NCBI RefSeq assembly: GCF_025602895.1
Contig: NW_026516310.1
Location: forward strand, 94,157-158,156
Length of the DNA stretch: 64,000 bases
Reading direction: 5' to 3'
DNA from: Polychytrium aggregatum
Lineage: Eukaryota; Chytridiomycota; Chytridiomycetes; Polychytriales
The position numbers and the translations under genes are program-made. The notes beneath the pieces are model-generated. The model ran no database searches and was not told the origin of the DNA. It saw nothing but the letters and a program-made list of their open reading frames with translations. Shown in pieces: positions 24,309 through 60,915 of this stretch; position 1 is the stretch's first letter, and each line of letters opens with the position of its first letter.

Positions 24309-24593
24309 TGAGCGAACGGGACACCACACCCGCTTCCATGAACATGAAGTATGTGATGAGCTTGCGTCAAGCTGAGCCATAAGAAGGGCGATGTGGATGG
24401 CGACGGTGCGCTTGAATAGCTCAGAGTACCGAGCAAACCGCTGCCTCCGAGGGCTGGATGCATTGCCCTTGCCTTGACGCCATGACATATCGCCAGCGGT
24501 GAATGGTGGTGCTCTTGGACACACTGGCGAATGGTCATGGCCAGTGCGCGATGGTATTGGGAACAAGTTATTCGGTCATTGACCAATAACCAA
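24309..24593 (-). pseudogene. Fanzor fragment A (TnpB-like, decayed)
   Basis: On the reverse strand the fragment starts at 24593 and reads CSQYHRALAMTIRQCVQEHH, then after a frameshift MSWRQGKGNASSPRRQRFAR. These align with YSKRQRTVHEMCKQVIDQ and ASWKQGKGYASSPRRLRFAK of the longest copy at 40850-41797. It ends at the first zinc knuckle. It is about 90-95% identical by eye to the fragment at 53790-54076 and both break at exactly the same base on the 5' side. It lacks RuvC-I, RuvC-III and the second zinc knuckle, so it cannot be active. Confidence 0.75.
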
Positions 24594-24699
24594 GGTGTCC
24601 TGTTGACTGTAAGGCTCAATACCAGGGAGTCCTGATTCGTTTTGCCGATGCCGGACGATCGCATGTCGAAAATCCGTCGAAAAGCCATCAAATACCACT

Positions 24700-24754
24700 C
24701 CCACATCCACATCCACATCCACATCCACATCCACATCCACATCACATCCACATC
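24700..24754. repeat. (CATCCA)n microsatellite
   Basis: About nine hexamer units with one shortened unit near 24743. It lies about 400 bp upstream of the chitin synthase start. Confidence 0.95.
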
Positions 24755-25149
24755 TCTGCGGCTGCCCTCCCCCCCCCCAAGGGATCGTCGCAGCGCCCGC
24801 CGGTCCGTGTGGCCTGTTGGTCCGAACAGCGGAGCCCATGACAAGCGCGGCCCTGGAGCGAGCGGGCCCTCGTCCGGCACCAGGGACTCATCGGAGCTTG
24901 TCAGCTTGCCCCCGACCGAGGGCAGAGGGATGCAGCTGGGAGAGGGGAGATGGAATGGTCCTCCAGCAATAAGTAGTGCCCTCGGATCGCTCGCTGCGAG
25001 ACTTCGTCTTCCAGATCCCAACCCCCTTGATCGATTCACATTGCTGTGATCTGTTCACGCCATCTCGCCCAGACTACTTTTTTTCTCCGCAACAGCATTG
25101 TTCTCCCCTTTATCTGCATATAGGCCCTCCAAGCTCGCTGCCGCAATCG

Positions 25150-28100
25150 ATGGACCCGAACATATCCCTCGCTGGAGCAAAGCCAGAGCCACTGATCGCT
25201 GTCGGCGGACGAACCGTCAGCCTCATGCCTCAATCGGGAGCCCACTCTGGCTTGCCACCGGCCCAGTCCAGCCCCGCGGCCGAGTCCGCCAGACATCTTA
25301 GTGACGATGTTGCTAGCGGTAAAGTCGAATCATGGTATATATCCATTCCTGCCAGGGAAGCTGGGCCTCCACCAACCCCACGGCCACGGACCGATCGCAT
25401 CAAGCACGACGGGGCTGTCTCGGTCGGGTCTCTCGAAAACACTCTTTCCGACACCAACTTCCGCCATTCAAGCGTCACTCGATCGGAGCGGGCCATCATG
25501 ATGGACCAAACCCTGTCTGACTCGGCAACGCAGCTGACAGTCTCGAGCCGCTCGCTGCCCTGGGGAAACGATCTACAGCCCAGCCCAGCGTCCACACAGG
25601 CCTGGCTTCAGAACCGCATGGATATCAAGCCAACCCCTCCCGCCGGCCACTTGACCATCAGCCAGCCCGTTCCCAGCCAAGTGGCCGAAATCGCAAGGTA
25701 TCACGCGGGCGAAGAGTTTCGGACCCTCCGGTACACAGCTGTAACCTGCGATCCCGATGAGTTCATGCAAAAGGGCTACACCCTGCGCCAGTACAACTAT
25801 CAGCGACATACCGAAATCGCCATTGCCGTAACGCTATACAACGAAGACGAAAAGGCTCTCCTGCGCACCATACGCTCTCTCATGAAGACCGTCTCTGATC
25901 TGTGCAATCGCAATCGGTCCAAGATTTGGGGCGGTGAGGGCTGGCAGAAGGTTACTGTGTGCCTGATTGCCGATGGCCGCGAGAAATGCCATCCCCGGGT
26001 CCTCAGCGTCCTCGGTCTCATGGGCCTCTACCAAGAGCATTTACTCGTGCCAACTGTCAACGGAGAGCCTGTTACGGCTCACATATTTGAGTACACAACT
26101 CAAGTCTGTGTCGACGACAATTTTGAAGTCCAACCCAACGAGGGATATGCTCCTGTGCAAGTGAGTAGTTCTTGCAACCGATGTGAGCCGGATCGGCTCG
26201 TTCCGGGCAGTTGTAAAGCGCACTTGGCGATCTTGTCCGTTGATTGCACGAATGAGCCGCCAAACCAAGCAATATCTACAGACTTGGGTTGAGAATGAAT
26301 CTGCAGTACCGGGAGCAATCCAATCGGGTGAGCTTGTCGTCGCCTGAGACTGATTGAGCCGTGTTCGATCGTGCCATAGTTTATATTTTGTTTGAAGGAA
26401 AATAACCAGAAAAAGATCAACAGCCACCGGTGGTTCTTCAATGCTTTTGGCCCGCTCCTGTGCCCCAACATCTGCCTGGTATGTCTGGTCCATTTACCAT
26501 TCACCGCCTTCAGACGAGGCCCACGTACCACACGGCAGCGAGGCTCTGAGTGGGTTTTGGGGTCTATCTTGGACACTTGGGCTGGAAACGAGGAATGGCC
26601 ACTCTGTCCGCCGTTGCTTGCGTTGACAGCAAGGTTCTCAACCTTCCATGATTGATGCAGCTGCTCGACGTCGGAACCAAGCCCTTCTCCGGAGCCATAT
26701 ATCATCTATGGAAGGCGTTTGATCGAGATCCGCACCTTGGTGGGGCTTGTGGCGAAGTGTGCGCCGAGCTGGGCAAGTTTGGCGCTGGCCTTCTCAATGT
26801 CCTCGTTGGGGCTCAGAACTTTGAGTACAAGATGAGCAACATCCTGGACAAGCCCACCGAGTCTGTCTTTGGTTACATCAGCGTCCTCCCTGGGGCATTC
26901 TCTGCATATCGCTACTCGGCGATCCAAGGCCGCCCACTCGAGATGTATTTCAGAGGGGAGCTTCTCAAGTACAACACCTCCAGCAAAGTGACTGCATCGA
27001 CCGCCAATATGTATCTGGTGAGCGCACCGTTCGAGCGATCGTCTGCCTGCAAATCCTGTGCCCCTGGACCTCGAAACAGATTCTCACGACTCCTCTGCAA
27101 TATACATGTGGTCACAATGGGCTTGGCCAGGCCGAGGACCGCATTCTGTGCTTTGAATTGCTCACCAAAACGCAGCAGAGATGGTCACTCAAGTATGTCA
27201 AGTCCGCCAAGGCAGAGACTGATGTCCCAAAGCACATCACCGAGTTTATTACCCAGCGCCGACGCTGGCTCAACGGCTCGTTCTTTGCCATGGTGTACGC
27301 ACTTTCTGGGGCGCACCGCATTCTTCAGTCAAGCCACTCGATTCCGAGAAAGATTCTGCTCGTGATCCAGTTTGTGTACAACGCTATATCCTTGATCTTC
27401 AGTTGGTTTGCGCTGGTGAGTCGCAGTCGCGTTTGCATTCGGGATTGCTTCTGCCGCTTCACCAAGGGACCATGTACTAACTGTGTATCGCCGGCCCAGT
27501 CCTCGTTCTACCTGACATTTTACTTTCTCGGCGGACCAAGCCAATCTAACCCGGCGGCCAACAGCGGCATGGTCGATCCATTCTTTGGCTATGGAGACGT
27601 GGTTTTCCAAATGCTTCAGCAACTCTACATCGGGTCGCTGGTGCTGACCTTTGTGGTTTCGCTTGGCAATCGTCCCAAGGGCTCCAATTATGCCTATCTG
27701 TTTTGCTTCCTTATCTTCACCTTCCTGATGATGGTGAGTGTGTGGGCTAGGATCCCGTGGGCTCCTCAGCACGGGTTGTCTGAGCCGCTCGGCGATGTGG
27801 ATCGTCGGTACATGGCCTTGGTGTTAAACAGCGTTCTTGCTCCGCAGGTGATGCTCTACCTCACCGGGTTTGCGATATTCCAGAGTCTGCCAAAGTATGA
27901 TGGCTCTGTGGCATCGCTGCCGAGCTTGCTCGGGCAACCCGTCTTCCGAGACATTCTCATTGCGGTGGGATCATCGTATGGACTCTTCATCCTCTCGTCG
28001 CTGCTCTACTTTGAAGTCACTCATATCATCGGGTCAATGCTGCAGTATATTCTGCTGCTTCCGTGCTTCACGAACATCCTGATGGTTTACGCATGTAGGT

Positions 28101-28729
28101 GTCTGCACTTCCTGTCCAATCTGCAGCATGTCGCAAAACCCATACTCAGTGTCGAGTGTGTCGGGAGAACAGTGCATCAAGCGGGCCATGGAGCATGCTG
28201 GCCATCGTATCTGATCCTCCTTGGCGACGCAGTCTGCAATATCCACGACGTCACTTGGGGCACCAAGGGAGAAAGCTCGTCGCCAATCAAACATGAACCT
28301 GCTGCCGACGCAGCAGGACTGGAGGCGGCCGCAGCCAGCGAAAGCGACATGGATGTCTCTCAAACTAGAAACGGGATCGATGCAGAATTCGATGCCGCCG
28401 TAGCGCACCTGCGAGCCGGCCCCAACAACCGGGAGCGGCCAGGGGCAGACGAGGCGCTGACCATCAGGGATCTCAAGACGCTGCAGGAGGACTACTTCCG
28501 ACGGTTTCGCTCCAACGTCGTGCTGCTGTGGATTGCAAGCAACTGGCTTCTGGTGCTGGTGCTGACCAACCCCAAGTGGTCCACCGTCTTTTACCAGACC
28601 CTGGGTGTCCGAGCGACGCCCGAGTTCAATCCGTACCTCAAGTTTCTGTTTTACGTCTTTGCGGGCATGGGAATCTTCCGCTTCTGCGGCTGTGTGATCT
28701 ATTTGGTGCTGTTCATGATTGGTCTTTGA
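25150..28729 (+). CDS. Chitin synthase (division 1 type, GT2)
   Basis: ATG 25150 ([13 protein letters not shown]), stop at 28727-28729, with several introns. The product polymerises GlcNAc from UDP-GlcNAc into chitin at the plasma membrane. A Pro/Ser-rich N-terminus leads to the CS1N-like segment ([19 protein letters not shown]) and the catalytic core: [19 protein letters not shown] (about 25815-25870), [20 protein letters not shown] after an intron, LLDVGTKP (the catalytic Asp), and [20 protein letters not shown] (about 26892-26951). [11 protein letters not shown] follows an intron ending about 27129, and [13 protein letters not shown] is near 27255. EDR and QRRRW are the acceptor-site and processivity motifs. 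At least six hydrophobic segments follow, ending in LVLFMIGL. No myosin or chitin-binding domain is seen. The class within division 1 cannot be set by eye. Confidence 0.95.
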
Positions 28730-28759
28730 TGGGTTCGTGGCCCTTTGTCCCAAAGGAAG

Positions 28760-29070
28760 TGATACAGAGTGCCGATGATACTCATACTCATGAGAAGCAA
28801 ATGGAGCGCTGTGCCAATATGGTGAAAACGGCCTTCACCCGGAGGTCGCCAAAGTGGTTCCTCTTGCAGCTTTTGAAGACCGCGGGCTGTCCTCCGGCCC
28901 ACAATCTCTCTCTTCGACCCACAATCTCTCTTCGACCCACAATCTCTCCAGTCTCCACAATCTCTCCAGTCTCCACAGTCGCCCCGCACAGCGATCATGT
29001 TGCGCGCCAGGTTGACGTCGCGATTCCACACGGTATGGCAGCTGTGATTCTTGGGTCATTCGGTTTGCAT
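28760..29070 (-). pseudogene. Fanzor fragment B (C-terminal part, interrupted by a minisatellite)
   Basis: The reverse strand reads HSCHTVWNRDVNLARNMIAV near 29000-29060, aligning with ASCHTLWDRDINATRNMISV of the longest copy. The second zinc knuckle and the RuvC-III Asp context are therefore recognisable. A tandem repeat (28899-28978) is inserted next. The tail QPAVFKSCKRN then matches RPGVFKTMLPK in another frame. It is a decayed, non-coding remnant. Confidence 0.7.
28899..28978. repeat. 17-18-bp minisatellite within Fanzor fragment B
   Basis: Copies of cccacaatctctcttcga and of ccacaatctctccagtct, about two to three of each, arranged side by side. Confidence 0.85.
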
Positions 29071-29452
29071 CCCTGCTCCGGCGGCGACTTGTGGTCCTGG
29101 ACGCACTGAAGATGGAGGCCGTCTCTCCTGGGCTGTGGATGATCGCACAGTATCGCAAGGCAGCGATCCAATGGCCTGCCCGTCCCATTGTGGGGGCAGC
29201 CAAAGCGCAAGCACAAGCCGCCCGCATTGTCTGGGTGGCTTTGCCTGCATCTTGTCGGATCACCCCGGTCTGCATCTTGCCGGATCATCTTGGGCTGCGT
29301 TGCTGTCGTCCACACCTCGTCCGTCTGCCTGGGAACCCAACACATCCCGCTGCCCCGGCTGCCTGTCGACCGATCCGTTCGCCCGCAAGCATCCAACCCT
29401 TGTGTGCCTCTTCCTCCAGTGGCCCGCCCTTGGAGCATCAATCCGCAAACCC

Positions 29453-32400
29453 ATGTCCGAGCGCGCTGATGCCAAACCCCCGCCTCCTGGTCTTGCCCAG
29501 GCGAGCTCACAAGCCCCGCAGCCCTCCGTCTTGAGCAGTTCACCAAGGCGAAGATCGGTTCCTCGGAATACCTTCAATGGCCTGTCCAGTGACCCGACTC
29601 CGTCGGCTATCCAGCTTGTCGGCTCGGCGACCGTCCCGGGCAGTCCTGCGAGCGTCCCACCCGTTCGAGAGCGTCGGTCCTTTTCGCATTCTCCTGCCGA
29701 CCGTGCTGCGGCTGATGGATATCTGCAGCATGGCCACGAAGACCATGTGCATGATCACATCCATCACCATCAACACCATCATCACCATCATCACCGGCAC
29801 CACACGCCGTCTCCCGCCCCGCATCCGCATCCGCACACCCATGCAGCGAGCGCATCGATTGACAGCCTTGTCTCTGGAAACCGCAGCCGTGCGCAATCTG
29901 TCATTTCCAAGCTTGGCTCCCGGCTTAGTCTGCGTCACCCGAGAGAGATCCTGGCCTCAGCCGATACGGTTGTGCGCTTACGGAACGGCTCTGTCCTGAG
30001 TCGCGGCACGCTGTTGAAGAGCGACCACTTCGATACAGGTATGGCCGACCAGAGGTGTGGTAGACGATGTAATGTGTGCGATGCGGTGCCATGGAATGTG
30101 GTGAGCTGTCGAGCCATATCCGGTTGCTGCATACGGTCGTAGCTAGCTTGTGCCAACTAAAGAAGCAACGACACTCGTCTCGTTAGGCTTCCATACCCGC
30201 ATCGACTTCTACCTCCACGGAGCCCCCAACTTCCGCATGGCCGACATGAACATCTTTGGTGTGGCTCAACCCAAGATCTCGGGCATCTCTACGGTCCTGC
30301 GTCTGTTGAGCTGCTACCCCGGAACGCCCGAGTCCACCCCTTGCATCTGGTTCTCGACCCGAGAGGAGCCCATGATCTATATCAATCAGAGCCCCTTTGT
30401 CCTGCGGGAGTGTGATAATCCGATGCGTAACGTGCGCACTTACCAGGGTATCAGCGCCAGCCGGCTTGAGAATATGGAAGAGCGTCTCAAGGAAGATATT
30501 CTCGCCGAAGCGGCTCGCTCAAACGGTCTCATTCTCGTCCACGACGAAATCCGTGAGTAGCATGCTGCCCCGCCGACCACTGCTACCCGCACGTTGTACC
30601 AATTTACTTTCTGAGCAGGTTGTGTCCGTCGAATGGGCTCATACGCAGCTTTGCAGTGGCTTCTGTCGTTGTTGGGGGTTCTTACGCTAATGTGCTGCTC
30701 TCACAGACACGGGCAAGATTGTTCCCACCTGGATGTCGGTGGATTCCGTACAAACGCTCAGGGAAGTCTTCCAGTCGTTTGTAGCCGAAGGCTACCCCGT
30801 CAAGTTCTTGCGCATCCCCGTAAGCTCTGACCAGGCTCCCGAGGACCAGTATATTGACGAATACGTCAATGTCATCAAGAGCGCCAGCATCAACGACTCG
30901 TTGGTCTTCAACTGCGGCATGGGTGTTGGTCGAAGTACGTTGTGGCATCATCTATCACGGCGACGCAGTGATTCCGCGCTGTCGGGGTGTCTGAACATGA
31001 TGGCGCGAGCAGCTTGCGCGGCTCTCTGCTCGTCCCAATGAGCTTGCTCCTACACACCTCAAGACCGCTGCGATATTGATCCGTGGACCTGCTTTGGTGG
31101 CTGACACTCTCGCTGGTATGCTCTTTTACAGCAACGTTTGCCATGGTTGTCGCAATGCTGATCCGACGAGCTCAAATCATGGCCAAGGGCCTGGATGATC
31201 CTGTACCTATCAATTACTTCCACTTGAACGAAGGCTCGCAGTCCGAGCTGTGGAACATGGAGGAAAACGAGGTGCAGAACCGCGCTTTGCTGAAGCTGGT
31301 TCAGGTTCTGGAGATCAGTAAGTGCTCGTGGCGACCGCATAGATGTCATGGATAGTATGGGCGGCGCGGATACCGTGGGCCATACAAGCCTGGCTATCAT
31401 TGCGGCCATGGGTAGATCAGAGGCAGTTCGCTGATGACCTCCCTCAACCTGTCCCGATCCTAATCAGTACATTGTTCATACGCTGGTTTGCACTGCTTCA
31501 GGTCTTGGCGGGAAGGTTAAAAATCGGTCTGCTATCGAGTGGGCTCTTGCTCGCGGCCCGCTGATCGATGATCTCAAGAACGCCATCATGGGCAATTATC
31601 AGTGCATTCTACAGCTCTGCAGTGTGCTCCAGGACGGAAATGACAGCAAGAAGCTCCTGGATGCCATTATCGACAGATGTAGGTCGCAGCTGCGTAGGAC
31701 TGCTAGCGATCACATCAAGCAAATGGTGAATTCGTGCTCTGACCGAATGACATCCTGGTTCCGTGGCTCTGATTTGCTGCAGGCGACATCATGATCAACT
31801 TACGCGAGGCGATATTGATGCATCGCATTCGATACTCCAATATCGGCGACGAGGTCTCGCTCGAGAAATCGCTGGGATGCCTCGAAAAGTACTTCTTCCT
31901 GCTCGCGTTCTGCTCGTATGTCAATGAGTCTTGCTCCGGCGAGCTGAGCTCCTTCGGCAGCTGGCTTAAGGATCGACCAGGTATGTGTAGGCCGGAAGGA
32001 AGGAACATTCGACTTGCTCAATGCCGACTGCTCGACTGGTTACGATGCCCACCTCACGAGCGTGTATGTATGCCTGTTCGGCGCATTGGCGAGTAGAAAT
32101 ATGGCGGATGCTCCAGAATATCCGCCACCGCGGGCCTCGGCTCTACCTCTTCCGCCCTGTCGAAGATCTGTCCGTCTTTGCCGAGGAAAAGGACACGCTC
32201 ATGGGATGGGGCCAGGGTCCTGCGCGCAAGAACATAAACGAACTCGAAACCTACGTCATCAAGGTAACTGCACCTGTCTTCTCCACTACGGGAAAGAGCT
32301 GCTCTGAATAGCTCGGAGCGGCTTCAGCCCGCTCGGATCTCATGTGCAGGACTAATACTGGGTCCCACGGCCCGCATTCTAGTCGCGCCAAGGCATCGTC

Positions 32401-35400
32401 TTGGTGCCGCATACCATTCTCAAGGTCGACTTTTGGTCGGCCAAGGCGTCTCTGCAAGTCGAAATTGAGGGGGCGTCCAATTTCAGGTGAGTTTCTATCG
32501 CACTTGTTTGGCTTGCAGCAGTGGCTAGCTCCAAGCGATGTCCATTCTGACTCGGTCGTGTACAGAAAAATACCAGGATTGAGTATCTATGGCGTTGCCC
32601 AGCCCACCCTCAAAGGAATCCGGAACGTAATCAACGAACTAACCAAGGAGCATCCACCCGACACCGTGGTCTACTGGATCAATCTCCGAGAGGAGCCGCT
32701 GATATACATCAACGGCACGCCCTATGTGCTCCGCGACCAGTACTTTACTTTGCGCAACATCAAGTCCTATGCTGGAATCACGTCCACGCGCCTGGAGTTG
32801 ATTGAAGACCGACTCAAGGAGGACGTTGCGTTCGAGCTCTCGAATTACGACAGTCGGATTCTCCTCCATCGAGAAATCAGCGACAGCAAAGTAACGGGTA
32901 TATGGGAGGACTGCACCATGGAGCATGTTCTCACGATCCGGGAAATCATGGGTCAACTCAACAATGACGGCGCTCTCAAGATATCGTACTACCGCGTCCC
33001 GACTACGGCCGAGGCGCCGCCCGATGAAGAAGACTTTGACACGCTGCTGGGGATCCTTGCAGCTGCCAACTTGAAGAGCACGGCCATTGTCCTGTATGTA
33101 TCAAGGGTTGGCAATATCACGGTCGCGGGATAGAATGCCCCCCCCCATCCTGAAATTTGCCCACAGGCCGGTGGGCTCTATTCGCTCGCCAGCTGCGGTT
33201 CTGCTTTCGGAGTCTTCTTGTTGCTGGCTCACGACTCGCGAGCGTTGTGGCCAGCTTCCTGTTCGGATGTGCTGCTACGTTATGGCAGATGTTGGGCTGC
33301 CTACTATTTTGTTCATTTTGGAGACGCCCCCATAGCTTCTCTGGCAAGGACAAGCTCATGGCATACCTCCGCGCGAGAGTATTGCGGCTGTTCGTCTGGG
33401 CTAGCCCTCACCCTGACAATCTCTTGATTTCATCCAGAAACTGCCAAATCGGAATGGGTCGCTCAACCGTAGGAACAGGTGTGTTGGCTCGAAAGGACCC
33501 ACTCGGACTTTTACATCTAAGAGATGAAGATGTCATTATGGTGACCCCGTGTGCCTAACTCTATCCCCATCCTCGTCTTCTGACCCACTTGTCTCAGTCC
33601 TGGTCTCGGTGTTGACGCATTGGCTCAACGGAACGACTCCAGTGCCCAGTCCTCAGCAGCGGCCGCGACTCAACTATCAGATCATCCACTCGCTCCTCCG
33701 TGTGATTCGTAATGGCCTTGAGTGCAAAGCGGTTGTCGATAACATCGTTGACAACTGCGGCGCATGCCTGAACATGCGCGATTCAATCGAATCATGGCGG
33801 CTCAAGGCCGAGAGCGCTGACAGCGAGGAGCAGCGCCGTCAGGCCGTGCGGAAGGGTCTGAACAACCTCAAGCGCTACTTCATGATGATAGTCTTCCAGA
33901 GCTACCTGGACCAGCACTCGCCGGACATGAAGGACCGGCTGGAGGGCTTCAGTCAGTGGCTTTCGCGGCATCCAGAGTTCAAAACCATGCGCGAAGAGCT
34001 TCATAATGCCGACGAGAAGTGCCTCATGCCAGTCGAGAAACTCGAGCCCGGTATGTCGCACAGGTGTCGCAGCGAACTTTGTAGCAGGTGTCGAGTGATG
34101 CACCAAAACAAGCTCAGCGAGAGGAAGAATTCTAGAGCTCACCGCTTGTTTGTGTGTATGCAGGCGATGGAATTGCCTTGACCAATGAGGTCATGGAGGT
34201 CGTCAACCAGCGCAATGGAAGCGTTCTGGCGCAACACACAATCCTCAAGTACGACATGTTCCCGGGTGCTCAGAAGCTGTCGCTGACTGAGCGCATTGAA
34301 GGTAGGGCCAAGCTGTCCTCGAGTCGGGCGGCGGCACAACCCGGGAGTGAGTGGCATGGAAGCACGAGCGCCAGTGCACCGGGGCCTACACTGAGACAGC
34401 TCGACGCTGCTGACTTTTTCGGCTCTCACACCAGGCGCCCCCAACTATCGAAGAGTGCCCCTTTCTTCATTTGAGACGTGGCGAGTCGGCCCGCTCAGTC
34501 AGCACTCGCTCTCGTCAAAGAGCTCGTCGCTCTTAGACTCCTCCTCAGAAGCCCATCTGTTATCGGACTATCCCTCGGTGTATGGCATCGGCATGCCTAC
34601 CAAGGACGCCATCCGCAGTGTGCTGGCCAAAGTTGGCGCCGGCCCCGATGGCGAGCGGAGACTCCTTTGGACCAGTTTGCGTGAAGAACCCGTCATCTAT
34701 GTGAACGGTATGGGGTGTTTGCGAGGATGCATGCAGGGAGCTTGTGTCTGTGGAAGGTTGTTGTGGGCTCTAACTCGCTGCTATCTCTCAGGGCGTCCCT
34801 ATGTCTTGCGGCTGTTCCAGGACCCGCTCAAGGTACGCGCCTACCCATTCCGCCAATGCTAAAGTTTGAGGCGACCGTAGTGCAACGTGTATATTTGCAG
34901 CCTCAGAGACTGGGAATCGGCATAACGAGAATTATGTTCCTTCGGGTAGCCACGGCAGACCATCGACTCTAACAGTGCTGATATATCCATCTCCATCCGA
35001 CGCAGAATCTTGAGGCAACTGGAATAGCGCGCGAGCGTGTCGAGAGAATGGAAATGCGCATGAAATTCGACATCATTAGTGAGCTTCGCAAGTACCAGGG
35101 CCGCCTGCTGCTTCATGAAGAAGAGATGCTCAAGGACGGACTCTCGATTGTTGTAAGTCTGGTGCTTGGACCGTGTTCAGGCGGCGTCGCAGAGTCGGAA
35201 GAGTTGACGCATGCAGAGTCAGTCGTCCTCTGACTGGCGCTCTATCGTTGCTGTGCTAGCCTATCTGGGAAAGCGTTCGCGAGGAAGATGTCCAGACACC
35301 GCTGGAAATCTACAAATCAATCCAGGAAGAAGGATACCGCGTCGACTATTTAAGAATTCCGATGTAAGTGCAATGGCTCCTTCAGTGCATGGCATTATTC

Positions 35401-36755: not shown

Positions 36756-36764
36756 CAAGCAGAC

Positions 36765-37030
36765 CGGGGCGGAGCGACTCGAGGAGATCGATGGTCTTGA
36801 TCTCGAGAATGCACGGAGATGTCCAAATGGCCGAATGCGGACACTGCATTACTGCATCGCGGCACCAAGCCCGGTCGAACGAGCAGATTGGCCGGATGTA
36901 TTCAAGGCCATGCTCCCGAAACCAACCGAAGCCACTGGATTGCCAACAAGCACCGCAGTGCAATCCCATGGCCTGCCCACCGCGGCCTACAGATCAGCAG
37001 GCTTCACCCCAGGGCATCTCGTCCTGTTTC
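36765..37030 (+). pseudogene. Fanzor C-terminal fragment, forward copy (fragment C2)
   Basis: Reads AERLEEIDGLDLEN, aligning with FKRLESPEYLDIDS of the longest copy. In another frame MAECGHC corresponds to the RSCASC knuckle. Then VFKAMLPKPTEATGLPT aligns with VFKTMLPKPTQTKRLPT. The RuvC-III stretch is deleted between these blocks. The 3' end near 37030 is unclear. Confidence 0.75.
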
Positions 37031-40015: not shown

Positions 40016-40849
40016 CTGGGGCCGAGGAAGAGAGCATGAGCGACTCCACTCTTGGCCAGTCCTTGCTTTGGCAACGGATGAGTTTCAAGATATGATGCAT
40101 CTGTGGCGGCGATGCCACCTCGAAGCAGTCCCGGTGTTTGCAAAGAGCACGGAAACAAGTGGGTGGCATGGCAATACGGGGAGCGATCTCGCCGAAGCAG
40201 AACAGGTCTACGACCGAGGCGGCGGAGGAGAGCGCAGACAGACACCATGTGGATTGGCGGGTGCGAGCTTACAAGCGATGAGTGGACCATGGCTCCTGGA
40301 GACAAACAGATGGCAGATGCGGGCGGCGACGGAGTGTGCGATGGATGCAGCGAGAGGATGCGCTGGAGGCAGGGGCGCGACGCAAGCCGAAAGCGGAAGC
40401 GGCAAGGCGCAAGGCGCAAGACGCAAGGCAAAAGGCGCAAGACGCAAGATCGGCTCGATCCGGCTGCAGCCGCGGTCGCCAAAAAAACGCCATTGCTTGC
40501 GCATCCAAGACAGCACTATCAATTTTTTCCGGCCCCTCGCGGCTGCTCATCTCGGTCACCTGAAAGTCACGTTGTATGTGGCGCAGCAAAAGTTGGAATC
40601 CGGCCATGGCCGGTTGGCGGCATTTGGTATCACCTTGAGCCGATTGACGGTGGTGGTGGGCGACTGGTGTGGAGGAATGACCAATTGTATCATTGTTGGA
40701 AGCTCCACTCCGATTGCGGACAAGAACCACCACCATCTGAATCTCTCTGGTTGGAAACCTAGTCAAGCGTGGCTGTGTGTCAGCGAGATGACATGATCGT
40801 TTGGCTATCAGGCAAGACTCACCTTGACAAGATGTTTTCCCACGACTGA
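40016..40849. other. Region upstream of coatomer zeta with purine-rich hexamer repeats
   Basis: Should hold the first zeta exon and its promoter. It contains a cgcaag(g/a)-type repeat (40381-40450). A good reverse-strand donor (gtgagt) lies near 40824, and another possible one near 40560. No coding exon could be confirmed. Confidence 0.4.
40381..40450. repeat. Degenerate cgcaag(g/a) hexamer repeat
   Basis: About ten imperfect units with strong purine bias on the plus strand, upstream of coatomer zeta. Confidence 0.75.
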
Positions 40850-41797
40850 TTGAGCGAGCGATGCGTTTCTGGATCCGAATCAAGGACGCCACTGCACAGT
40901 ATCTCTGCCAGCCCAAAATGCGCTGGTTTTGAGGAGATTCTCTCTTCCCCAAGGGCAGAACCAGCCATCGCTGCTATTTTCTCGCCAGATGGCTCCCAAG
41001 CGAAAGACACCAGCCAGGCGACCAAGTGGATCCAGAGCACCCACAAGATCCTTGGTCTGCAGCAATGGATGAGCACCACACCAAGTCCCAAGATCCCTGG
41101 GTTGGATCCCTTCCTGCGATACATTCGCCATGTGTTCGATGGAGACATGCTGGACAAGCAGCTGTACTTCAGCCTGACCCGGCGACGGCGATTCAAGCGA
41201 CTCGATCTCTACAGCAAGCGACAGCGCACCGTCCACGAGATGTGCAAGCAAGTCATCGACCAGGCACCAAAGGAGACCGAAGTGGTGATTGCCTTTGGGA
41301 ATGCCTCGTGGAAGCAAGGGAAGGGATACGCATCCAGTCCCAGGAGGCTCAGGTTCGCCAAGTATTTCGAGCAATTCCACCATCACCAGAGACGCCCACC
41401 AGACCGATCCGTCTCCAAGATCCATGTGTGCTCGGTGAACGAGTTCAACACATCCCAGGTGTGCTCACATTGCCAGGAATTCAAGCGACTTGAGTCACCC
41501 GAGTATCTTGATATCGATTCACCACACTTTGTCCGGAGCTGTGCAAGCTGCCATACGCTGTGGGATCGAGACATCAATGCAACCAGGAATATGATCTCGG
41601 TATGCCAGTCGATCATCGCCACAGGAGATCGGCCGGGTGTATTCAAGACCATGCTTCCCAAACCAACCCAAACAAAGAGATTGCCAACGAAGACAGGAGT
41701 GCAATGCCATGGCCTGCCCGCTGGGCCTACAAGTCAGTCAGCGGGGTTCAGACATCTGAAGCCAGAAATGGGATCTGTCCCGTTTCTTTCTGGATAG
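40850..41797 (+). mobile_element. Fanzor (eukaryotic TnpB-like) ORF, 5'-truncated, fragment D
   Basis: A single open frame of 315 codons. From about residue 90 it follows the Fanzor/TnpB C-terminal plan: a basic helix (LTRRRRFKRLDLYSKRQRTV), the Fanzor block VVIAFGNASWKQGKGYASSP, and VCSVNEFNTSQVCSHC, where the Glu sits in the position used as the rearranged RuvC-II residue. A four-Cys zinc ribbon follows (CSHC...CASC) and then RuvC-III WDRDINATRNM with its Asp. The tail reads GVFKTMLPKPTQTKRLPTKT. No RuvC-I DPG-type motif is found upstream, so one catalytic Asp is missing and the product should not cut DNA unless the first half is encoded elsewhere. Residues 1-85 look unrelated. Fanzors are RNA-guided nucleases carried by eukaryotic mobile elements. 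This is the best preserved of six loci in the window. Confidence 0.85.
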
Positions 41798-41925
41798 ACT
41801 GTAAGCATCTTGTTCCTTGTGCATTTCGACAGTGGATGCCGGGTCGCCCATATTCTGGGCAGTCCACTTCGGGGTTGCCGTCCCTCTTGGGATGGTCGAT
41901 GGGAGGTGTTTGACTCCCTTGTGCA

Positions 41926-41927
<2 letters not shown>

Positions 41928-41962
<35 letters not shown>
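41928..41962. repeat. (TG)n dinucleotide microsatellite
   Basis: About 17 uninterrupted TG units. Confidence 0.98.
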
Positions 41963-41963
<1 letters not shown>

Positions 41964-42107
41964 CGGCGAGAGGCTTCTCGCCTTCCCTCGGGGGTCTCTC
42001 GCCAGAGACTGCTCTTCTCGCCTTCCGAGGTGGCTCCGAGAGCGCGTTTTTTCGTTCTCGCTCATTTTTTTAACAAGAAATTTTTTCATAGTGCAGGCGC
42101 CAAACAT

Positions 42108-49019: not shown

Positions 49020-49664
49020 GATGCAGCGACGGTGCCGACGAGCGGTATCGGGTTGTTTGGGCTGGTGGAGGAGGAGGGAGGAGGGATGGATGAGCTGGCG
49101 ATGCTTCTGTGGAAAGCGTTGGGTGCTATCGGGCGGGAATCAAGCAGGACAACGGATCAGCGAGACGCTTGGAGCCCGGGGGATGAGCAAGAGGACGACC
49201 GAGTCGATGTCGGATGGATGCGATGGATGCGATGGGACGACCGAGTCGATGTCGGGTGGGATGGCCAAGTGTTCCAAACCAGCCGATGGGCGGCGGCAGC
49301 GAAAACGGCTTCCAGCACGGGTCTTGGCCCCGGCGCGAGGACTCCCTTGTGCGATGCGCGTGTGCGCCCTGGGCGGTGGCACAGCGTGGCCGTGGCAGTG
49401 CGCGCCCCTTGCGATAGCGTGGCACGGACGCGTTGCGTGCGCCGCTGTTGTTGTCGCCGCCTGTTTGTGTTGCCGCCGCCGCCGCTTTTGCCCGCCGCCA
49501 CTGTTGCTGCGTGCCTTGCCTGCACGCCCACGTGCCAGCCGGATGCATTCGATCCGCCCGCCCGGCTGGATCCGGCACCGTCGCCGTCGCTCTCGTCTCG
49601 CTGCCGTCGTGTCCACACCCAAGCTCCACCATCTTCCAAGCGCAACCACGCCGCCGTCGCCAAC
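49020..49664. other. Divergent intergenic region between GT71 and nicastrin
   Basis: About 645 bp, GC-rich, with short gatggatgcgatgg repeats near 49210-49235. Long open frames occur on both strands here because stops are rare in GC-rich DNA. None resembles a protein family. Confidence 0.55.
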
Positions 49665-52600: not shown

Positions 52601-53520
52601 TGTCTCAAAGGTGGCCAGTCTGCTGGACTGCATGACCCGAAACCTCTCGTGCAGCACGCTTCAACCACTCTGGGCTAATCAAAGTAAGTACAGCCTCCAG
52701 ACGGATTGTGCGAGAGAGGCTTGGATTCCGCAGAAGCAGTGGTTGTGAAGAGCGAGCGCAGATAGCCCCATGGGCGGTCTATGCTCGGTTTTGGTGCATC
52801 TGCTTGTGACTCGGCCGTCGGTGCCGATACCGACGTTTACTTCAATGGCATGCCCAAGGCCGCAGCCAAACTCGATCTCACGCTCGCTCCGGTCCTGCTG
52901 CGGCTGCCAGTCTCAGGTGTGCCGACGACGAGCTCGGACTACGCCTCGGCCTTCCAGTACGACCAAAGTCTCCAGCTGATGCCCTACATGATCAATCAGT
53001 TCATGTTCAACATCACGGCCACAAGCCGCATATCCAACTGCTCAACGAGCCAGGACTGCAGTTATGCGAACGGCTACCAATGCATCGCAAATAGCTGCAT
53101 CATGTCGCGCACGCACTACCACTACGCCTACAGTCCAGGTATCGCCAAGGATCCGAACTCTGGCCTGTGGGTCGTGGCGGATGCAACCAAGCCTACCTGG
53201 ACTGAGAGCCGGTAAGTTCTTGGAAATCTCTTGGCCTTTGTGTCCGCAGTCAAAGGAGCCGATCGTGTTTTATCCTGAAGCGCCAATGAAGGCCAGGTCA
53301 GACTCTGGCGCTCCCACCGCTTCTTTGGCTGACTCTGTCGACTCTGTACGGCTGGCCGCTGTCGCTCAGATGGAACAACATACGCATTCGTGTCTTCAAG
53401 AGCTCCTCGCTTGCGTACCAGTGGATCGAGTTGGTAGTTGGTGTGGTCCTGACAGCCGTCACCGTCGCGGCAACGCTCTGGGCACGCAAGCTGGTGAACA
53501 AGCACTTCAAGACCGATTAG
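49665..53520 (+). CDS. NCSTN: Nicastrin (gamma-secretase subunit)
   Basis: ATG 49665 begins a signal peptide (MKVLMRAAAALLLLWG); stop TAG 53518-53520; about 12 exons. Nicastrin is the large glycosylated ectodomain subunit of gamma-secretase. Recognisable blocks: ISVSGCTRILNASGTTGCQS near 49900-49960, GVLYMAATQSDVDGFSSNTP, SGKLAGVILINNGTSAQVAP, MFQSFDYPIVAIW, and YVQFDATMSAAVDAATCLRR. The peptidase-like core is IIVVSSRIDSVSFIHDFSFG and VLFTYFDAESWGLSGSEQFL (about 51565-51630). Many Cys and N-glycosylation sites are visible. The last intron (about 53212-53365) joins TESR to WNNIRIRVFKSSS, followed by a membrane span (LVVGVVLTAVTVAATLW) and a short KLVNKHFKTD tail, the expected type I topology. 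Presenilin, Aph-1 and Pen-2 are not in the window. Confidence 0.88.
50370..50424. repeat. (CCATCG)n microsatellite in a nicastrin intron
   Basis: About nine hexamer units with two ccatct variants, located in an intron upstream of the exon starting near 50440. Confidence 0.95.
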
Positions 53521-54428
53521 TCGATCTCGCCCGCGACTGGTGCTGCCATGCAACGTATGAGGAGGAGGCGGAGCTGGATGCAGCGTACTCAAAAATGAAA
53601 TAGACACCCTGCTTTGAGCCAGGGCTGTCGCTTGTTTCTGGGTCCTGAATACACCCATCGGTTGCTGCGCTACGATGCTGCAGTCCGAGTCGCTGTACAG
53701 TATGGAACCGCGATCTCAATGTAATTGTGGAGGCCAGCGGGCAACGAGAGGACCGGACTGTGTGGATCTCTCTGCGGCCTCCGTTTGGCACATGAGCAAA
53801 CGGGGCGCCACACCCGCTTCCATGAACATGAAGTATGTGATGGCTTGCGTCAAGTTGAGCCATAAGAAGGGCGATGTGGATGGCGACGGTGCGCTTGAAT
53901 TGCTCAGAGTACCGAGCAAACCGCTGCCTCCTGGGACTAGATGCATTGCCCTTGCCTTGACGCCATGACACATCGCCAGCGGTGAATGGCGGTGCTCTTG
54001 GACACACTGGCGAATGGTCATGGCCAGTGCGCGATGGTATTGGGAACAAGTTATTCGGTCATTGACCAATAACCAAACGAGAGCACACCCAGATGGCAAG
54101 CCAGTGCCGGCCAGCTTGACTGGAACCGCGCCGTGGCCAGCCACACGGGTGGCTCGATCCGTCGTGCAGCCGGCTTTTGCGAGATCTCGTCTTCTCTGCG
54201 GCTGCCCGTCTCGATTCCTCCTTGATCCGCAGAGGCCCATCAACGCACCGCCGACAGCGAGACCTCACCGAGCAGCGATCTGCGCAGACACCCCGCCGAC
54301 AGCCGAGTACCCAGAGGCGCTGTGTACGATCTCTCGTTTCTGCGCTCCAGCCGATCACTTGCAAGGCTCTCTATTAGCCAGCCGCCCCGCTACTTCGATA
54401 AGGGATCGACGACACTCCGACCCTCGAC
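53521..54428. other. Intergenic region with Fanzor fragment E
   Basis: About 900 bp between nicastrin and Aquarius. The left half is the reverse-strand Fanzor remnant. The right 350 bp is presumably the Aquarius promoter and shows no repeat. Confidence 0.6.
53590..54076 (-). pseudogene. Fanzor fragment E (longest decayed copy)
   Basis: The reverse strand starts at 54076 with the same base as fragment A and reads CSQYHRALAMTIRQCVQEHR, then VSWRQGKGNASSPRRQRFAR. GTTTGCTCATGTGCC near 53790 corresponds to the VCSHC knuckle. The second zinc knuckle and RuvC-III are blurred. Near 53640 gggtgtattcaggaccc matches the GVFKT codons of the longest copy, giving a tail VFRTQKQATALAQSRV. Several frameshifts make it non-functional. 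Confidence 0.72.
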
Positions 54429-57400
54429 ATGGCACCAACGCCCGAAACATCGCACCCGCCCAAGACCGCGGATCTGGGCTTCTTTTCATCTGGAGCCGAA
54501 GACCCGATGCTGGTCGACGGGCCCGATCAAGCCACAGAGCCACCTGCGGCAGAGCTTGAGGCAGCCCTGCCGGCCGCTGACCAGGATTCCGAGGCCGTCG
54601 CCGGCACGAGCGCATCGTCCAGGGAGCGACCCGAGATCTTTGCGCCGACGCTCGGCGAAATCGAAAGCGACGAGATCACCAAAGTGGCCAGCCTCAACTG
54701 GGGCCTCGATCTCGCCGACGAAAGCATCCGCTTCGACACCGACCTTGCCCGGCGGATCTGGGAGAGCGAGCTACTTGGGACAGACTTTTCGCTCAAAAAG
54801 ATCATGCTCCTGGAATACAGCCAATACCTCGAAAGGGTAAGCTGGCTCTGCATCCGCCACCGACAGCCGCAATATGCAATTCTGCTCTCGCTGTGCATCA
54901 GATGGCCTGTGGATACGGGCCCCGTGCAGAGCGGCTGACCTGTCGCTAACCTCCATTTCCATTCCAGTATCTGTGGCCCGGTCTGAAGACCGAGGAGACC
55001 CTCGACTTTCACGTCCTCTCGATCATCGTCATCATCAACGAAAAGTTCCGAGAGCGAGTAACCGGGGTCTGGGACGTCGTCACTGCCGACAAGGCCAAGT
55101 TCGCGTCATTCTTTGCGCATACCCTCCGGCTCATGATCAATCCCGAGGGTCTGTCGCTCAAGGTCGAGCGTTTCTTGGTGACATTCCTTATCAATGCCTT
55201 TGCATCGCTCGAAAACAAAGTCATCCGCTCTGTGTGCCAGCCTCTGGTTGGCATCGGGATTTGGGTCTCGCTCGCCGATGGTCGACGAGAACTTGAGTTT
55301 GGGCGCCATCGCCCGATCCAGGACCTGTGGAAGAAGGCCGAGGACCAACTGAAAAAGTCAAAGAGTAAGGCAGCGACTCTCCCCTTGCAGACAGAGCCAA
55401 AGCCATGGGGGTGGATGTGATGCGCATCCGATCTGCTCCGTCTGCTGTGCAGCTGCTGACCCATCTCCTCGTTCCGGCCGTGGCTACACAGACAAGCCCA
55501 AGATCCAAGCTGAGCGAGTGTTCTTTTCCAGGCTCGTCCAGCACTTTTACGATATCCTTGAATCAATCCCAAAGGCGGGCAAGACGCCCAAGGATACGGT
55601 GTTGTACTGCGAGCGCTTCCTTGAGCTGATGATCGACATTGAGGCTCAGCTTTCGACCCGCCGCTTTGTCAACGTGCTGCTCCATGATCACCACTTTGTG
55701 GCTATATGCCAAGCCAGCGCCCTTGCGAGTCGAGGACGAGAAACCCAGCACATCAACCGCGATCTGAGAGACTCTTTCAGCCGACACGAGGCCACCGAGG
55801 ACGGTGATCTGTTTGTTCAGCTGTTGGACAAGCTGGAGCACTACACAAAGTTTGAAATCGATGACTACAAGGGCATCGCGCTCTCTGACGCCGACATGCT
55901 CAACCAGCACTATCGCCAAATCCACCGACTACAGAAGCTGGCATTCGCAAAGTACCGCGATGTGCTCGAAGAGTTTGCCCTCGCCAACGTCGGCAGCATC
56001 GAGTCGCACGAAGGCTTCACGAAGCATTTTTCCAAGCTCGACCACGAGACCCTGATCAAGTTCTGCCGGGACATTGGCGTGCGCGCGGAGAAGCTTGGCG
56101 GTGGCAAGTTCTACAGCAGCGAGTTTCTGTGCACCGTCTTGGAGCGCACGTACTGCAAGCGCAAAAGCCAGATCGAGGCGATCAACTCGACGCCTCTCTA
56201 TCCCAACGAGGTACGTTTGCCTCCAGCGAGGCTGTCGAGTGGCGGGTGACGGATGCCCAGGCGCCATCATGGCGCAAACGTCAACGTGCCGATCGTGAGG
56301 ACCAAATCACACAGTCTTGCGGTTCCTCCCAGGCTTTGCCTATTCTGCGTAGCCTTGTATCCGCTGCGCGGGAGTCCACGAACCTGCCATCTTGTGCATT
56401 TCTGACTGACTGCCGTTTACCGTCCCTTTGGCTCAGATCGCTCTGTTCGATGAGGTCACGGTACCCAACGAGCAGTATTTTTCGAACGACCACTGCCTGG
56501 CGATCCCGAAACTTAACCTGCAGTTCCTGACCGTACACGACTACCTGCTGAGGAACCTCAACCTGTTCCGGCTCGAGACCACGTACGAGATCCGCCAGGA
56601 CATTGAAGATGCTGTGCAGCGGCTCTCTCCAAAGTACAACCCGGACGCCGGCAACAGCACCTCGACCGTCTTTTCTGGATGGGCTAGAATGGCGGTTCCG
56701 GTCACAGAGGTAAGCGAGGTGGTGGACGTGCTGCTCACTACGGGGGTGCCTGCGGGTCCAACATCGCGCTGGAGCGGTGGCTCGATGATGCTCATCCTAT
56801 GTCGTCGCTCTCAGTTCCGAATCCGAACTGTCTCGGAACCCAAACTCGGGGAGGTCAAGCCGGCATATGTCACCGCAGACGTGAGCTTTTCCCTCCAAAA
56901 GTACTCCGAATCGATCCAGCGTGAATGGGACACGCTCCGGCCCCATGACATTGTCTTTTTGATCGGCATCCAAATGGAGCCTGAGCTCTTGGGCTGGAAC
57001 CAGCGCAAAGAACGCCAGAGCAAGACCCGTGCCGGTACCAACTTCCGACGAACGTTCGGCATCAAGTACATTCGCGGCGGTGAGGTCGGCGATTTTGTCG
57101 ACGACAATGGTCGGCCCCTCGACGAGAGCGCTGCCCTCCCTGGCACCAGCGACGGCAGCGGCGACAGCTTCACTCGCAAGCCTTTCAGCGAGCGGCCCAA
57201 GCCCAAGGGCCACCGCCGCAATCTCCGCATCTTCCTGGACACCAACCAGTATCAGCTCGATTTGCATCACCAGAAGCAAACTGGCGCTGATGTGTATGGG
57301 ACCCTGAACGTTCTCATGCGCAGAAAGCCTCAGGAGAACAACTTCAAGGCTGTGCTGGAGACTATCCGCGACCTGATGCAGAGCGATCTCGTTGTGCCCA

Positions 57401-60400
57401 ACTGGCTCGAAGACATCTTTCTCGGATACGGAAACCCTGGCAGCGCTGCCTGGAGCGAGATGCCGGAACCCGTTCGCACGATCGATTTCCGCGACACCTT
57501 TCTGGACTGGAGCCATCTTGCCAGCAGCTTTCCGGGCAAGGTAGGCGGCGCACAGTGGTGATCTCGCTGAACAGCCAAGTGGCCCCTCAATTGTGCTGTC
57601 CACTAGCTCAGCCTTCTATCAAGCCGTGTGTGTCCTCGGCCTGTCTGGAATCGCGCCTCTGACTGCGATATCTTTGATTTCATCTGCAGAAACTCGTGGC
57701 ATCCAGCGATGGCAACACTGACGACGATGGTAACATTCGCCCGCCCTTCATCATTACCTTCCCGCCTGGACTCTTCAGTCACAAAAATGGCAGCTTGGAG
57801 GCATCTGTCTCGACGGGTGCAAAGCGAAAGCTGCCCGAGCTGCAAGACCTCGATGAAAGCATGGATGTCGATGAGCCAGATCAAGATGGCCTCGCAGTCC
57901 GCACATACAAGCCGCTCAACATGGGTCCGTACCCCGAGAACATTCCAAAGAAAAACGCCGTGCCCTTCACATCGTCCCAAGGTAAGGGAGATAGGTCTCG
58001 GAGATCCAATGCCGACGATGCAGGAGGCACGACCGACTGCTGGAATGGTATCTGCCAGTACCCGTCTAAAGACGAGAACATGGGATTGATGTCAAAGGCA
58101 TTGTTGTGTGGTATCGGCGAGTTGTCAAGACAGTTGAAGGTCGGCTATATGCCAGATAGCCCATGAAAAGTGGATTCAGAGTACTGATCCACATTCGGTG
58201 TTGACGCCATCGCTTCTTGCGTTCACAGTCCAGGCCATCCATTCGGGCACTTCGCTTGGCCTCACCATGATTGTTGGCCCTCCGGGAACTGGCAAGACCG
58301 ACGTTGCCGTCCAGATCATCGCCAATCTCTATCACAACTACCCCGAGCAGCACACGCTGCTGATCACCCACAGTAACCAGGCCCTCAACCAGCTCTTTGA
58401 GAAGATTGCTGCACTCGACATCGATCCCCGCCACCTGCTTCGTCTCGGACACGGCATGGAGGAGCTGGAGATCGAGGGCGTTGCCGGCAACTGGGGCAAG
58501 GCCGGGCGTGTGAACTCGTTCCTGGAAAAGCGACTCCAGCTTCTTGCGGAGGTCGACCGCCTCGCGGCCAGCCTGGAGGTGCCCGGTGCCCACGGCTCCA
58601 CGTGCGAAACGGCCGGGTACTTTTACCGATACCATATCCTGACACGCTGGGAGCACTACCTCAGCCAGATCAAAGATCAGGATCCCGACGAGGGCACCCT
58701 GCAGAAGCTTGTCTCGACCTTCCCGTTCGCCGCTTTCTTCTCCAACGCGCCAGAGCCGCTGTTTGCGAGCGCCAACTTGTACGAAGAAGCGCTTGACGTC
58801 GCGGAGGGGTGCTTCCGGCATCTCAAGAACATCTTTGAGGAGCTGGAAGAGATCCGTGCCTTTGAGCTGCTCAAGTCCAGCCGCGACCGATCCAACTATC
58901 TCTTGATCAAGGAAGCCAAGATCATTGCACTGACCTGTACGCATGCCGCCCTCAAGCGACGGGAGTTGGTGCAGCTGGGCTTCAAGTACGACAACGTTGT
59001 GATGGAAGAAGCCGCACAGATTCTCGAGGTCGAGACGTTTATTCCCTTGCTGCTGCAGTCGCCTGAGGAAGACGGCAAGAGCCGCCTCAAGCGGGTCATC
59101 ATGATCGGAGACCACAACCAGCTACCCCCCGTCGTGAAGAACATGGCCTTCCAAAAGTACGGCAACATGGAGCAGTCCATGTTTACTCGTTTTGTCCGGC
59201 TTGGCGTGCCGACAATCGAGCTGGCTGCCCAGGGTCGTTCGCGCAGCTCCATCGCCGAGCTCTTCCGATGGCGCTACCACAGTCTCGGCGACTTGCCGTC
59301 GGTGTGCAACCGAGAGGAGTATCAGCGCGCCAACCCCGGTCTGGCGTTCGAGTTCCAGCTCATCGATGTCGGCAAGTATCTGAACAAAGGCGAGACCGAG
59401 CCTCGGCCACACTTTGTCCAGAACCTGGGCGAGGCTGAGTACGTGGTCGCCACGTACCAGTACATGCGACTGCTGGGGTAAGTTGTTGGGAGCAGGAGAG
59501 AAGGGCCTTGGCTGGTGCCGCTGGCGCCGTCACAGAGGGGCGGCTGCGTGTGGGCAGAACCGAGAGCAGTCCGCAGGATATCCTGCGGCGGTCGCCTGGC
59601 CCGCGCCAATCTTCATCAAACGTTGGCCCAGTGTTGCTCATGCGTCATTCCCATGCTCTGTTGTTGTGCCTTCGACCCCATAGGTACCCCGCAGAGAAGA
59701 TCTCGATTCTTACGACCTACAACGGCCAGAAGGAGCTTATCCACGATGTTCTCGAGCGCCGCTGTTCGTGGAATCCGCTCTTTGGCCGCCCGGCTCACGT
59801 CTCAACGGTCGACAAGTTCCAGGGCCAGCAGAACGACTACATCCTGCTGTCACTCGTGCGTACCAAGACCGTCGGCCATCTGCGCGACGTCCGCCGTTTG
59901 ATTGTGGCAATGTCGCGTGCCCGACTCGGTCTGTACGTCTTTTGCCGCCAGAAGCTCTTCCAGAACTGCTTTGAGTTGCAGCCCGTGTTCTCGATCTTTG
60001 CCAAGCGCCCGACGGATCGGTTGTGGCTCGTCACAGGTGAAAAGTATGGCGCATGGGACCGCGCCGCTGCCGAGCCGGTCGTGGTTCGCCAGGTCGCCGA
60101 GACCAGCGACCGGGCAAAGGATGGGCCTGTGAGCACCAGTAGCACCAAGAAGACCCGAACGCCGGCCAAGAAGTCAAAAGCTGGGCCCAAGGCTGCCGCC
60201 CTTGTTGCTGCCGATGTCGATGCCGATGCCTCCAGTGCCGCCCCTCCGTCGACTGGCGGTGACTGGAAGCCTGCTGAAGCCTGGAAGGAGCGCGTCTACG
60301 GCATGGCCGGGGTCGAAGCGATGGGCACGTATGTCCACCAGATGATCCAAGAGCAGCTCGCTCATCTCAAGGTCCAGCGAGACGCAGCCTTCCAAGCCGA

Positions 60401-60491
60401 GATGACCGTAGCGCAGCCTGAGGCTGTCGAGTCGACCGAGACCGCCGCTCAGGACGAGGGCGACGACGACGAGGATGAAAATGATGCCTAG
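54429..60491 (+). CDS. AQR: Aquarius (AQR/Cwf11) intron-binding spliceosomal helicase
   Basis: ATG 54429, stop 60489-60491, about 9 exons. AQR is an SF1 RNA helicase that binds introns upstream of the branch point within the spliceosome. After an Ala/Glu/Pro N-terminus the armadillo-like part begins [20 protein letters not shown] (about 54968). It continues with [20 protein letters not shown] and [20 protein letters not shown], then [14 protein letters not shown]. The helicase core is clear: [20 protein letters not shown] (58258), [34 protein letters not shown] (motif II with EEAA), [20 protein letters not shown], and [14 protein letters not shown] after the last intron (59480-59682). [20 protein letters not shown] and [13 protein letters not shown] close the core. 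A low-complexity Ala/Glu tail follows. Similarity to human AQR is near line by line. Confidence 0.97.
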
Positions 60492-60594
60492 TCGTGCGAC
60501 CCGCAGCCGACTCTTTCTTTCGATTCGGGCATCGAGGGTGCTGATCGCGAGTCCTGCATCCCAATGCGGTGCGCAACGTGATTACAGCGTTTGT

Positions 60595-60690
60595 AAATGA
60601 AATGAGACACCCCCGTTTTTAACCAGGACAGTGTTTTTCTGGAACCTGAATACACCCACCCACTCATCGCATTCATGGCCAAGCACATCA
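60595..60690 (-). pseudogene. Fanzor C-terminal tail, reverse copy (fragment F1)
   Basis: Reverse strand: gggtgtattcagg near 60645-60657, then ggtgtctcatttcattta, which resembles ggtgtctatttcatttt of fragment E. The same segment type occurs at 36672-36755. It ends where the forward fragment begins. Confidence 0.55.
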
Positions 60691-60915
60691 CCATCTTGAT
60701 ATCGAGAAACCACACTTTGTCCGGAGCTGTGCAAGCTGCCATACGCTGTGGGATCGAGACATCAATGCCTCAAGGAACATGATCTCGGTATGCCAGTCGA
60801 TCATCGCCACAGGAGATCGACCGAGTGTATTCAAGACTGTGCTCCCGAAACCAACCAAAACCACTCGATTGCCAACCAGGACGGGAAACAATCTTTCTGG
60901 ATAGACTGTATACAA
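60690..60915 (+). pseudogene. Fanzor C-terminal fragment, forward copy (fragment F2)
   Basis: Reads LDIEKPHFVRSCASCHTLWD, then RDINASRNMISVCQSIIATG, then SVFKTVLPKPTKTTRLPT, almost identical to residues in the longest copy (41505-41700). It then has a short deletion and ends with the same ctttctggatagactgta stretch. It is the closest relative of fragment D in the window, so it is probably a recent truncated copy. Confidence 0.9.

Follow-up and report, generated by a model that had tools for sequence, protein, structure and literature searches.

The stretch of Polychytrium aggregatum DNA analysed here, a 64,000-nucleotide part of contig NW_026516310.1 (C11; hereafter the window), carries at 40.9 kb an intact, non-autonomous, internally deleted and spreading Fanzor1 element of the family that we call A, in which CACTA-type ends are combined with fossils of a mariner-type transposon. 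The element occupies 40514–42093 on the + strand. It is 1.58 kb long and sharply bounded, as judged by DNA comparison with other copies; its ends, CACTATCAA...TTCATAGTG, are of the form CACTAT...ATAGTG, and its limits and internal deletion junction recur at many other loci of the genome (64.7 Mb in 418 contigs). We think it rather probable that a Fanzor once carried by a mariner was taken up by a CACTA-like element, that it now moves by the outer ends and has spawned the short passenger, and that a guide-RNA function goes with it. A sequence-only reading of the window had taken this copy to be nearly intact at its 3' half and the remaining copies to be decayed; the 40.9-kb copy is instead a complete, bounded element. 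Its assignment to Fanzor stands; PF07282 matched the open reading frame at 40850–41797 with 38.1 bits against a cut-off of 26.3.

The short element and its copies

In the short element, the native Fanzor start codon (40989–40991, + strand; MAPKRKTP) is followed by a deletion junction at a shared CACC (41008–41011), at which six full-length copies hold about 1.8 kb of extra sequence. The deletion took the RuvC-I DPG motif and everything upstream of it save the first codons, and in this copy it leaves the native ATG in a different frame from what remains of the C-half. The C-half itself (41012–41797, + strand) retains the RuvC-II glutamate codon (41441–41443), the zinc ribbon, the RuvC-III WDRD motif (41561–41572) and the stop codon (41795–41797). 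Its predicted structure had a pLDDT (predicted local distance difference test) score of 34.9 and was not used. Family A elements also have, in their right part, a GT microsatellite (41929–41962 in the window) whose length differs among copies.

Full-length copies with the RuvC-I DPG, which the sequence-only reading had proposed to look for, are present in the genome and also carry a displaced RuvC-II glutamate and the RuvC-III aspartate. They fall into two families, A and B, whose Fanzor1 proteins are 42% identical, and the assumption of a single family was therefore wrong. The DPG occurs in six of six family A and three of three family B full-length frames and is absent from the short element. 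Counted from the first methionine, family A proteins are 853–881 aa long in five of the six frames and 933 aa in the other, and all three family B proteins are 790 aa. A regular expression describing a glutamate six residues before the zinc ribbon, followed by the RuvC-III aspartate, matched all six family A frames and none of the three of family B, in which inspection by eye gave E-x6-CSKC and then CKNPSC, a wider second knuckle. Zinc-knuckle-like C-x2-C-x4-H-x7-C motifs were also seen by eye N-terminal to the Fanzor domains, two in family A and one in family B. In comparisons with PDB, the best match to a family A profile was SpuFz1 (chain 8gkh), a weak one (E = 0.024), and a phmmer search with a single 901-aa frame gave no hits.

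The suggestion that the genome is heavily colonised by these elements was borne out. A first look gave 663 PF07282 candidates and 1701 candidates for the C-half, and 150 of 150 matched in each of the two scored sets; by hand count, 59 of the 150 scored PF07282 places belong to frames 700 codons or longer. Because many loci are present twice with near-identical flanks, two haplotypes of many regions appear to be in the assembly, and the counts of junctions, markers and ends that follow include both wherever both were assembled. With up to three mismatches allowed, the genome has 114 places with the deletion junction and 76 with the undeleted marker, along with 136 left ends and 123 right ends; reversed controls gave none. 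When the first 100 ends listed for each side were paired, 63 elements resulted, comprising four of 278–295 bp, one of 665 bp, 28 of 1.44–1.64 kb, one of 2.6 kb, 17 of 3.33–3.43 kb and 12 of 3.70–3.88 kb. The last class is explained by a 366-bp TGTCA...TGACA insert with AGAAC on both sides, which lies directly upstream of the Fanzor ATG in three full-length family A copies (L043, L044 and L045); in two others (L041 and L042) the site is uninterrupted. Judged by its sequence, the insert looks like a solo long terminal repeat with a 5-bp duplication, and it may act as a promoter.

The short element is flanked by a 3-bp target duplication, CAG, at 40511–40513 and again at 42094–42096. Equal 3-bp flanks were found in 15 of 27 non-duplicate copies, whereas 1000 shuffled pairings gave 2.6 on average and never more than 8. 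There was no excess at 2 bp and one match altogether at 4–8 bp. For this sample 55 short-type loci were compared, of which 30 were complete enough by the limits chosen; five full-length copies were added and eight allelic duplicates removed.

Towards the right end, a segment at 41966–42059 (+ strand) is nearly invariant (diversity 0.007–0.019) and has predicted stems. By analogy with the Fanzor loci described in PMC10432273 and PMC10711439, it is likely to be a guide-RNA scaffold. Diversity is 0.008 at 41834–41863 and 0.079 in the last 34 bases, and it is likewise low, 0.012–0.013 in short copies, in the 5' non-coding block at 40674–40833.

Proposed exchange among copies

Across fourteen allelic pairs there are 409 differing sites, 308 of them with both variants found in at least two other copies. 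The differences are clustered in tracts in several pairs, and in nine of the fourteen the element is clearly more divergent than either flank (for example, 3.4% versus 0.1 and 0.3%, or 2.7% versus 0). Taken over the whole element, the closest copy is the allele in 13 of the 14 pairs, the exception being L053/L065, where other copies are closer. Within nine tracts picked for allele difference, a non-allelic copy was closer in 17 of 18 allele comparisons, with one tie. We then compared short with full-length copies (44–45 and 6–9 copies, respectively) by means of the fixation index, Fst. It was 0.28 at bases 440–497 and 0.10 at bases 499–640, values reached by one and three of 500 permutations, and lay between −0.03 and 0.01 elsewhere in the element. 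Because short and full-length copies are thus undifferentiated except beside the deletion, these results suggest heavy ectopic gene conversion among copies. Against the excess divergence seen in the nine pairs, two of the fourteen differ at a single site, and one flank is itself 2–6% divergent in L009/L052, L011/L077, L056/L059 and L066/L084. CpG or RIP-like (repeat-induced point mutation) hypermutation was considered as the source of the divergent alleles and rejected, since transversions account for 152 of the 409 differences and CpG transitions for 79. Conversion in place of a long copy into a short one was likewise rejected: none of 34 pairs was mixed (24 short/short, 10 long/long), in a search of 105 short and 76 long sites with hand-chosen anchors, several of them already short/short pairs, so that the short count was favoured.

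It is possible, if somewhat doubtful, that the shared variation and the divergence between alleles arose during assembly, reads of other copies having been used in assembling or polishing each locus; such an artefact would produce many of the patterns just described. When scaled by the variation among copies, allelic differences fall from 0.16–0.59 inside the element to 0.04–0.15 in its outermost 50–100 bases, as would be expected from short reads anchored in unique flanks, and some pairs have no flank differences at all while the element differs. However, conversion needs homology on both sides and so predicts fewer events at the edges too, and there are differences no more than 25 bases from an element end. 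Moreover, the absence of any N from 299 kb (loci plus window), together with contigs of more than 1 Mb that run through repeats, suggests long reads. If the artefact were nevertheless real, the elements, their ends, the junction and the fossils would hold, and gene conversion would fall.

We give little credence to the idea that the same deletion recurred in different full-length copies at the CACC microhomology, with no exchange between them. The microhomology is there and Fst is close to zero over most of the element, as recurrence would predict; but Fst rises to either side of the junction (in a comparison with only 6–9 full-length copies), and 114 identical junctions would be unlikely to arise by recurrence.

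It is similarly improbable that the C-half of the short copies is made from an internal ATG and regulates the full-length nuclease. In its favour, variation at third codon positions in short copies (0.096) is roughly double that at first and second positions (0.053 and 0.043). The same pattern is found in full-length copies, however (0.055, 0.039 and 0.110 for the first, second and third positions), and as the two pools exchange variants such a signature can be borrowed; in addition, the native ATG of the short element is out of frame.

Mariner-type fossils and the proposed origin

Family B is of the Tc1/mariner type, with a DDE_3 transposase, its 790-aa Fanzor1, inverted repeats and TA flanks. 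In L049 a 325-aa open frame upstream of the Fanzor gene matches DDE_3 (PF13358, E = 1e-19); in L050 the transposase frame is broken, and the sequence of L047 is covered in part only. TA follows the right end in all three family B copies and precedes the left end in L049, the sole copy with its left end covered.

Two pieces of such an element lie inside family A. The first, at 40830–40872 (+ strand; DVFPRLIERAMRFW), is a 43-bp relic of the tail of the family B transposase, 93% identical to L049 in the window copy and detected by tblastn with E = 2e-4; it encodes 14 of the 15 C-terminal residues of that transposase, and its DNA identity between the families is 93–95%. The second, at 41776–41803 (+ strand), lies over the Fanzor stop codon, ends in TA and is identical to the family B right end at 24 of 28 positions. 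Its score was 36, compared with a maximum of 26 in 200 block shuffles, and 21–25 of the 28 positions match in 52 of 54 aligned, scorable family A copies. Its diversity is 0.036, as against 0.165 in the preceding bases and 0.073 and 0.110 in those that follow. A fixed guide directly after this fossil end was rejected as a candidate because the 30 bases past its TA vary, with the diversities just given.

A nested capture is the simplest reading of mariner fossils inside CACTA-type ends. A Tc1/mariner-type element with a transposase and a Fanzor, similar to family B, would have nested into an element with CACTA-type ends and would then have lost its left end and most of its transposase, so that the right repeat and the transposase tail stayed as fossils. 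For its mobility the composite would rely on the outer pair of ends, CACTAT...ATAGTG, making 3-bp duplications, and presumably on a CACTA-type transposase encoded elsewhere in the genome and acting in trans. One copy may then have dropped about 1.8 kb of the nuclease gene while retaining both termini along with the right-end region, and may have multiplied as a passenger, with 40514–42093 among its descendants. Full-length copies would provide the RNA-guided nuclease, and any copy with a right end could provide a guide RNA against its own empty insertion site; empty sites would be cut and then refilled through repair.

A candidate source of transposase exists. CACTA-type transposase domains (PF02992, Transposase_21) were found at 29 places in the genome, 28 of them over the cut-off (for example, C201:122238–138172); they include two equal-score groups, of 10 and 6, and these 16 have 156-codon frames. 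Several observations nevertheless weigh against the proposed origin. The link between the PF02992 transposases and the family A ends is conjectural, and no uninterrupted outer element was found, the 665-bp copy at C370:229382–230046 having the right block while the left block was not among the matches listed. The terminal inverted repeat of family A is short, and 12 of the 27 copies have no equal 3-bp flanks. A mariner left end was not found in the four family A copies tested, and the right end folds only weakly better than shuffled sequences (z = −0.7 to −2.3 in ten copies). Finally, the identity of the 43-bp relic between the families is far above that of the Fanzor genes, an excess likeness that simple common descent does not explain.

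We consider it very unlikely that the family A ends are themselves mariner ends, with the TA inside CAC-TA-T as the true target and the 3-bp duplication misleading. TA does occur inside both ends and family B is a TA element; but the CAC and GTG outside the TA belong to the repeat in nearly all listed copies, the duplication lies outside them, and a separate mariner-like right end sits 290 bp inside family A.

Capture of a mariner-borne Fanzor by a CACTA-like element might be extended, as a speculation, to a drive network run by Fanzor. After the move from a mariner to a CACTA-type vehicle, full-length copies would provide the nuclease and more than 100 deletion derivatives the guides for their own sites. 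If this were true, both the deletion derivatives and the conversion tracts seen in single alleles would come from the cutting of empty donor sites and their repair with template switching, and guided repair, rather than transposition alone, would maintain and homogenise family A. In a limited literature collection, we found no paper on Fanzor together with CACTA. For Fanzor and gene conversion, the matches listed there were three reviews or methods papers, judged by title, and a preprint on an alga (PMC12633428), which was also the match listed for Fanzor and EnSpm. Its excerpt mentions EnSpm-Plavaka transposons and, in a separate place, names as the most abundant repeat an uncharacterised Fanzor element.

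The window at large and comparison with known transposons

The sequence-only reading had placed Fanzor copies at six loci. Ten open frames from Fanzor loci of the same genome (six of family A, three of family B and one of a third kind) were used as tblastn queries, and all six loci were confirmed, with best E values of 2e-8 at 24.3 kb, 6e-6 at 28.8 kb, 3e-11 at 36.7 kb, 1e-163 at 40.9 kb, 3e-9 at 53.6 kb and 3e-35 at 60.6 kb; the reversed window gave no match at E ≤ 0.01. The third kind, a TnpB/Fanzor2-like family, was observed on C379 and in L048 (C124), where 2306–4094 and 6200–7988 form an inverted pair of 1789-bp copies, 99.9% identical. Its 477-aa frame joins an IS607-transposase-like N-terminus (E = 4e-12, under the curated cut-off) to a TnpB domain (over the cut-off).

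The loci at 24.3, 28.8 and 53.6 kb, on the − strand, are closer to family B (75–82% identity versus 53–74% to family A), and family A is the better match for those at 36.7, 40.9 and 60.6 kb, on the + strand. The 24.3-kb copy (24298–24609), with TA on both sides, is probably a complete, non-autonomous miniature element; its right end scored above shuffles and its left end did not. A family B derivative at 28962–29164 contains a Fanzor C-terminal piece (28987–29052) and a weak transposase-like piece (29102–29164, E = 0.2). Another, at 53792–54076, has no recognised ends and is 96% identical to the 24.3-kb copy across 286 bp. At 36769–37005 and 60680–60901 lie fragments of the family A Fanzor C-terminus, as seen by tblastn. 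The description of these copies as decayed thus fits 36.7, 53.6 and 60.6 kb, which lack recognisable ends, and probably fails at 24.3 kb. That all six loci are decayed copies of one family, for which the same three loci speak, is scarcely tenable, being contradicted at 40.9 kb by the two families, the discrete size classes, the common junction and the duplications. A second dispersed repeat adjoins Fanzor fragments at 60582–60695 and 53581–53657, with further matches in L019, L039 and L041.

Window genes recognised with Pfam include chitin synthases, Tim54, nicastrin and aquarius, among others, and the end of the 40.9-kb element is 227 bp upstream of the probable Tim54 start (codon picked by eye). 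The supposed accumulation of copies near gene 3' ends was not upheld, as it is indistinguishable from placement in intergenic gaps. There were no Rfam or tRNA matches within the window, and none of 45 stretches with the pattern sought for viral contigs was confirmed.

CACTA (EnSpm) transposons have CACTA...TAGTG ends and make 3-bp duplications. Family A shares both, and PF02992 transposases exist in this genome, although the element itself carries no transposase and no long terminal repeats and its kinship to those transposases is presumed. Internal deletion derivatives like miniature inverted-repeat transposable elements keep both ends, lose part of the coding region and reach high copy number. 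The short family A copies are alike in all three respects; unlike such derivatives, they share variants with full-length copies across the element except near the junction. Being so numerous, they lend themselves to testing, in nature, whether the guide regions at the right end persist once the protein is lost, and whether a Fanzor promotes gene conversion within its family. Guide-RNA loci that lack the protein ('ghost loci') are reported in the excerpt of PMC10432273.

As described in the excerpted parts of PMC3627910 and PMC10432273, the closest comparison is with the Fanzor1 of Tc1/mariner-type elements and with SPu-1/SpuFz1 of Spizellomyces punctatus, which have the RuvC DPG and the displaced glutamate in common with the families described here; family B resembles them further in its TA flanks and DDE transposase. 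Family A differs: its ends are of the CACTA type with 3-bp duplications, it lacks a transposase, it holds a mariner end as a fossil in its interior, and its N-terminus has the two C-x2-C-x4-H-x7-C zinc-knuckle-like motifs (by eye). Many unrelated transposon families contain Fanzor1 genes, and the excerpt of PMC10711439 leaves the reason for future study. The record of a Fanzor changing transposon is unusually clear in family A, which looks like the readable fossil of one such change of vehicle: within the new element, the right end of the old one still overlies the stop codon.

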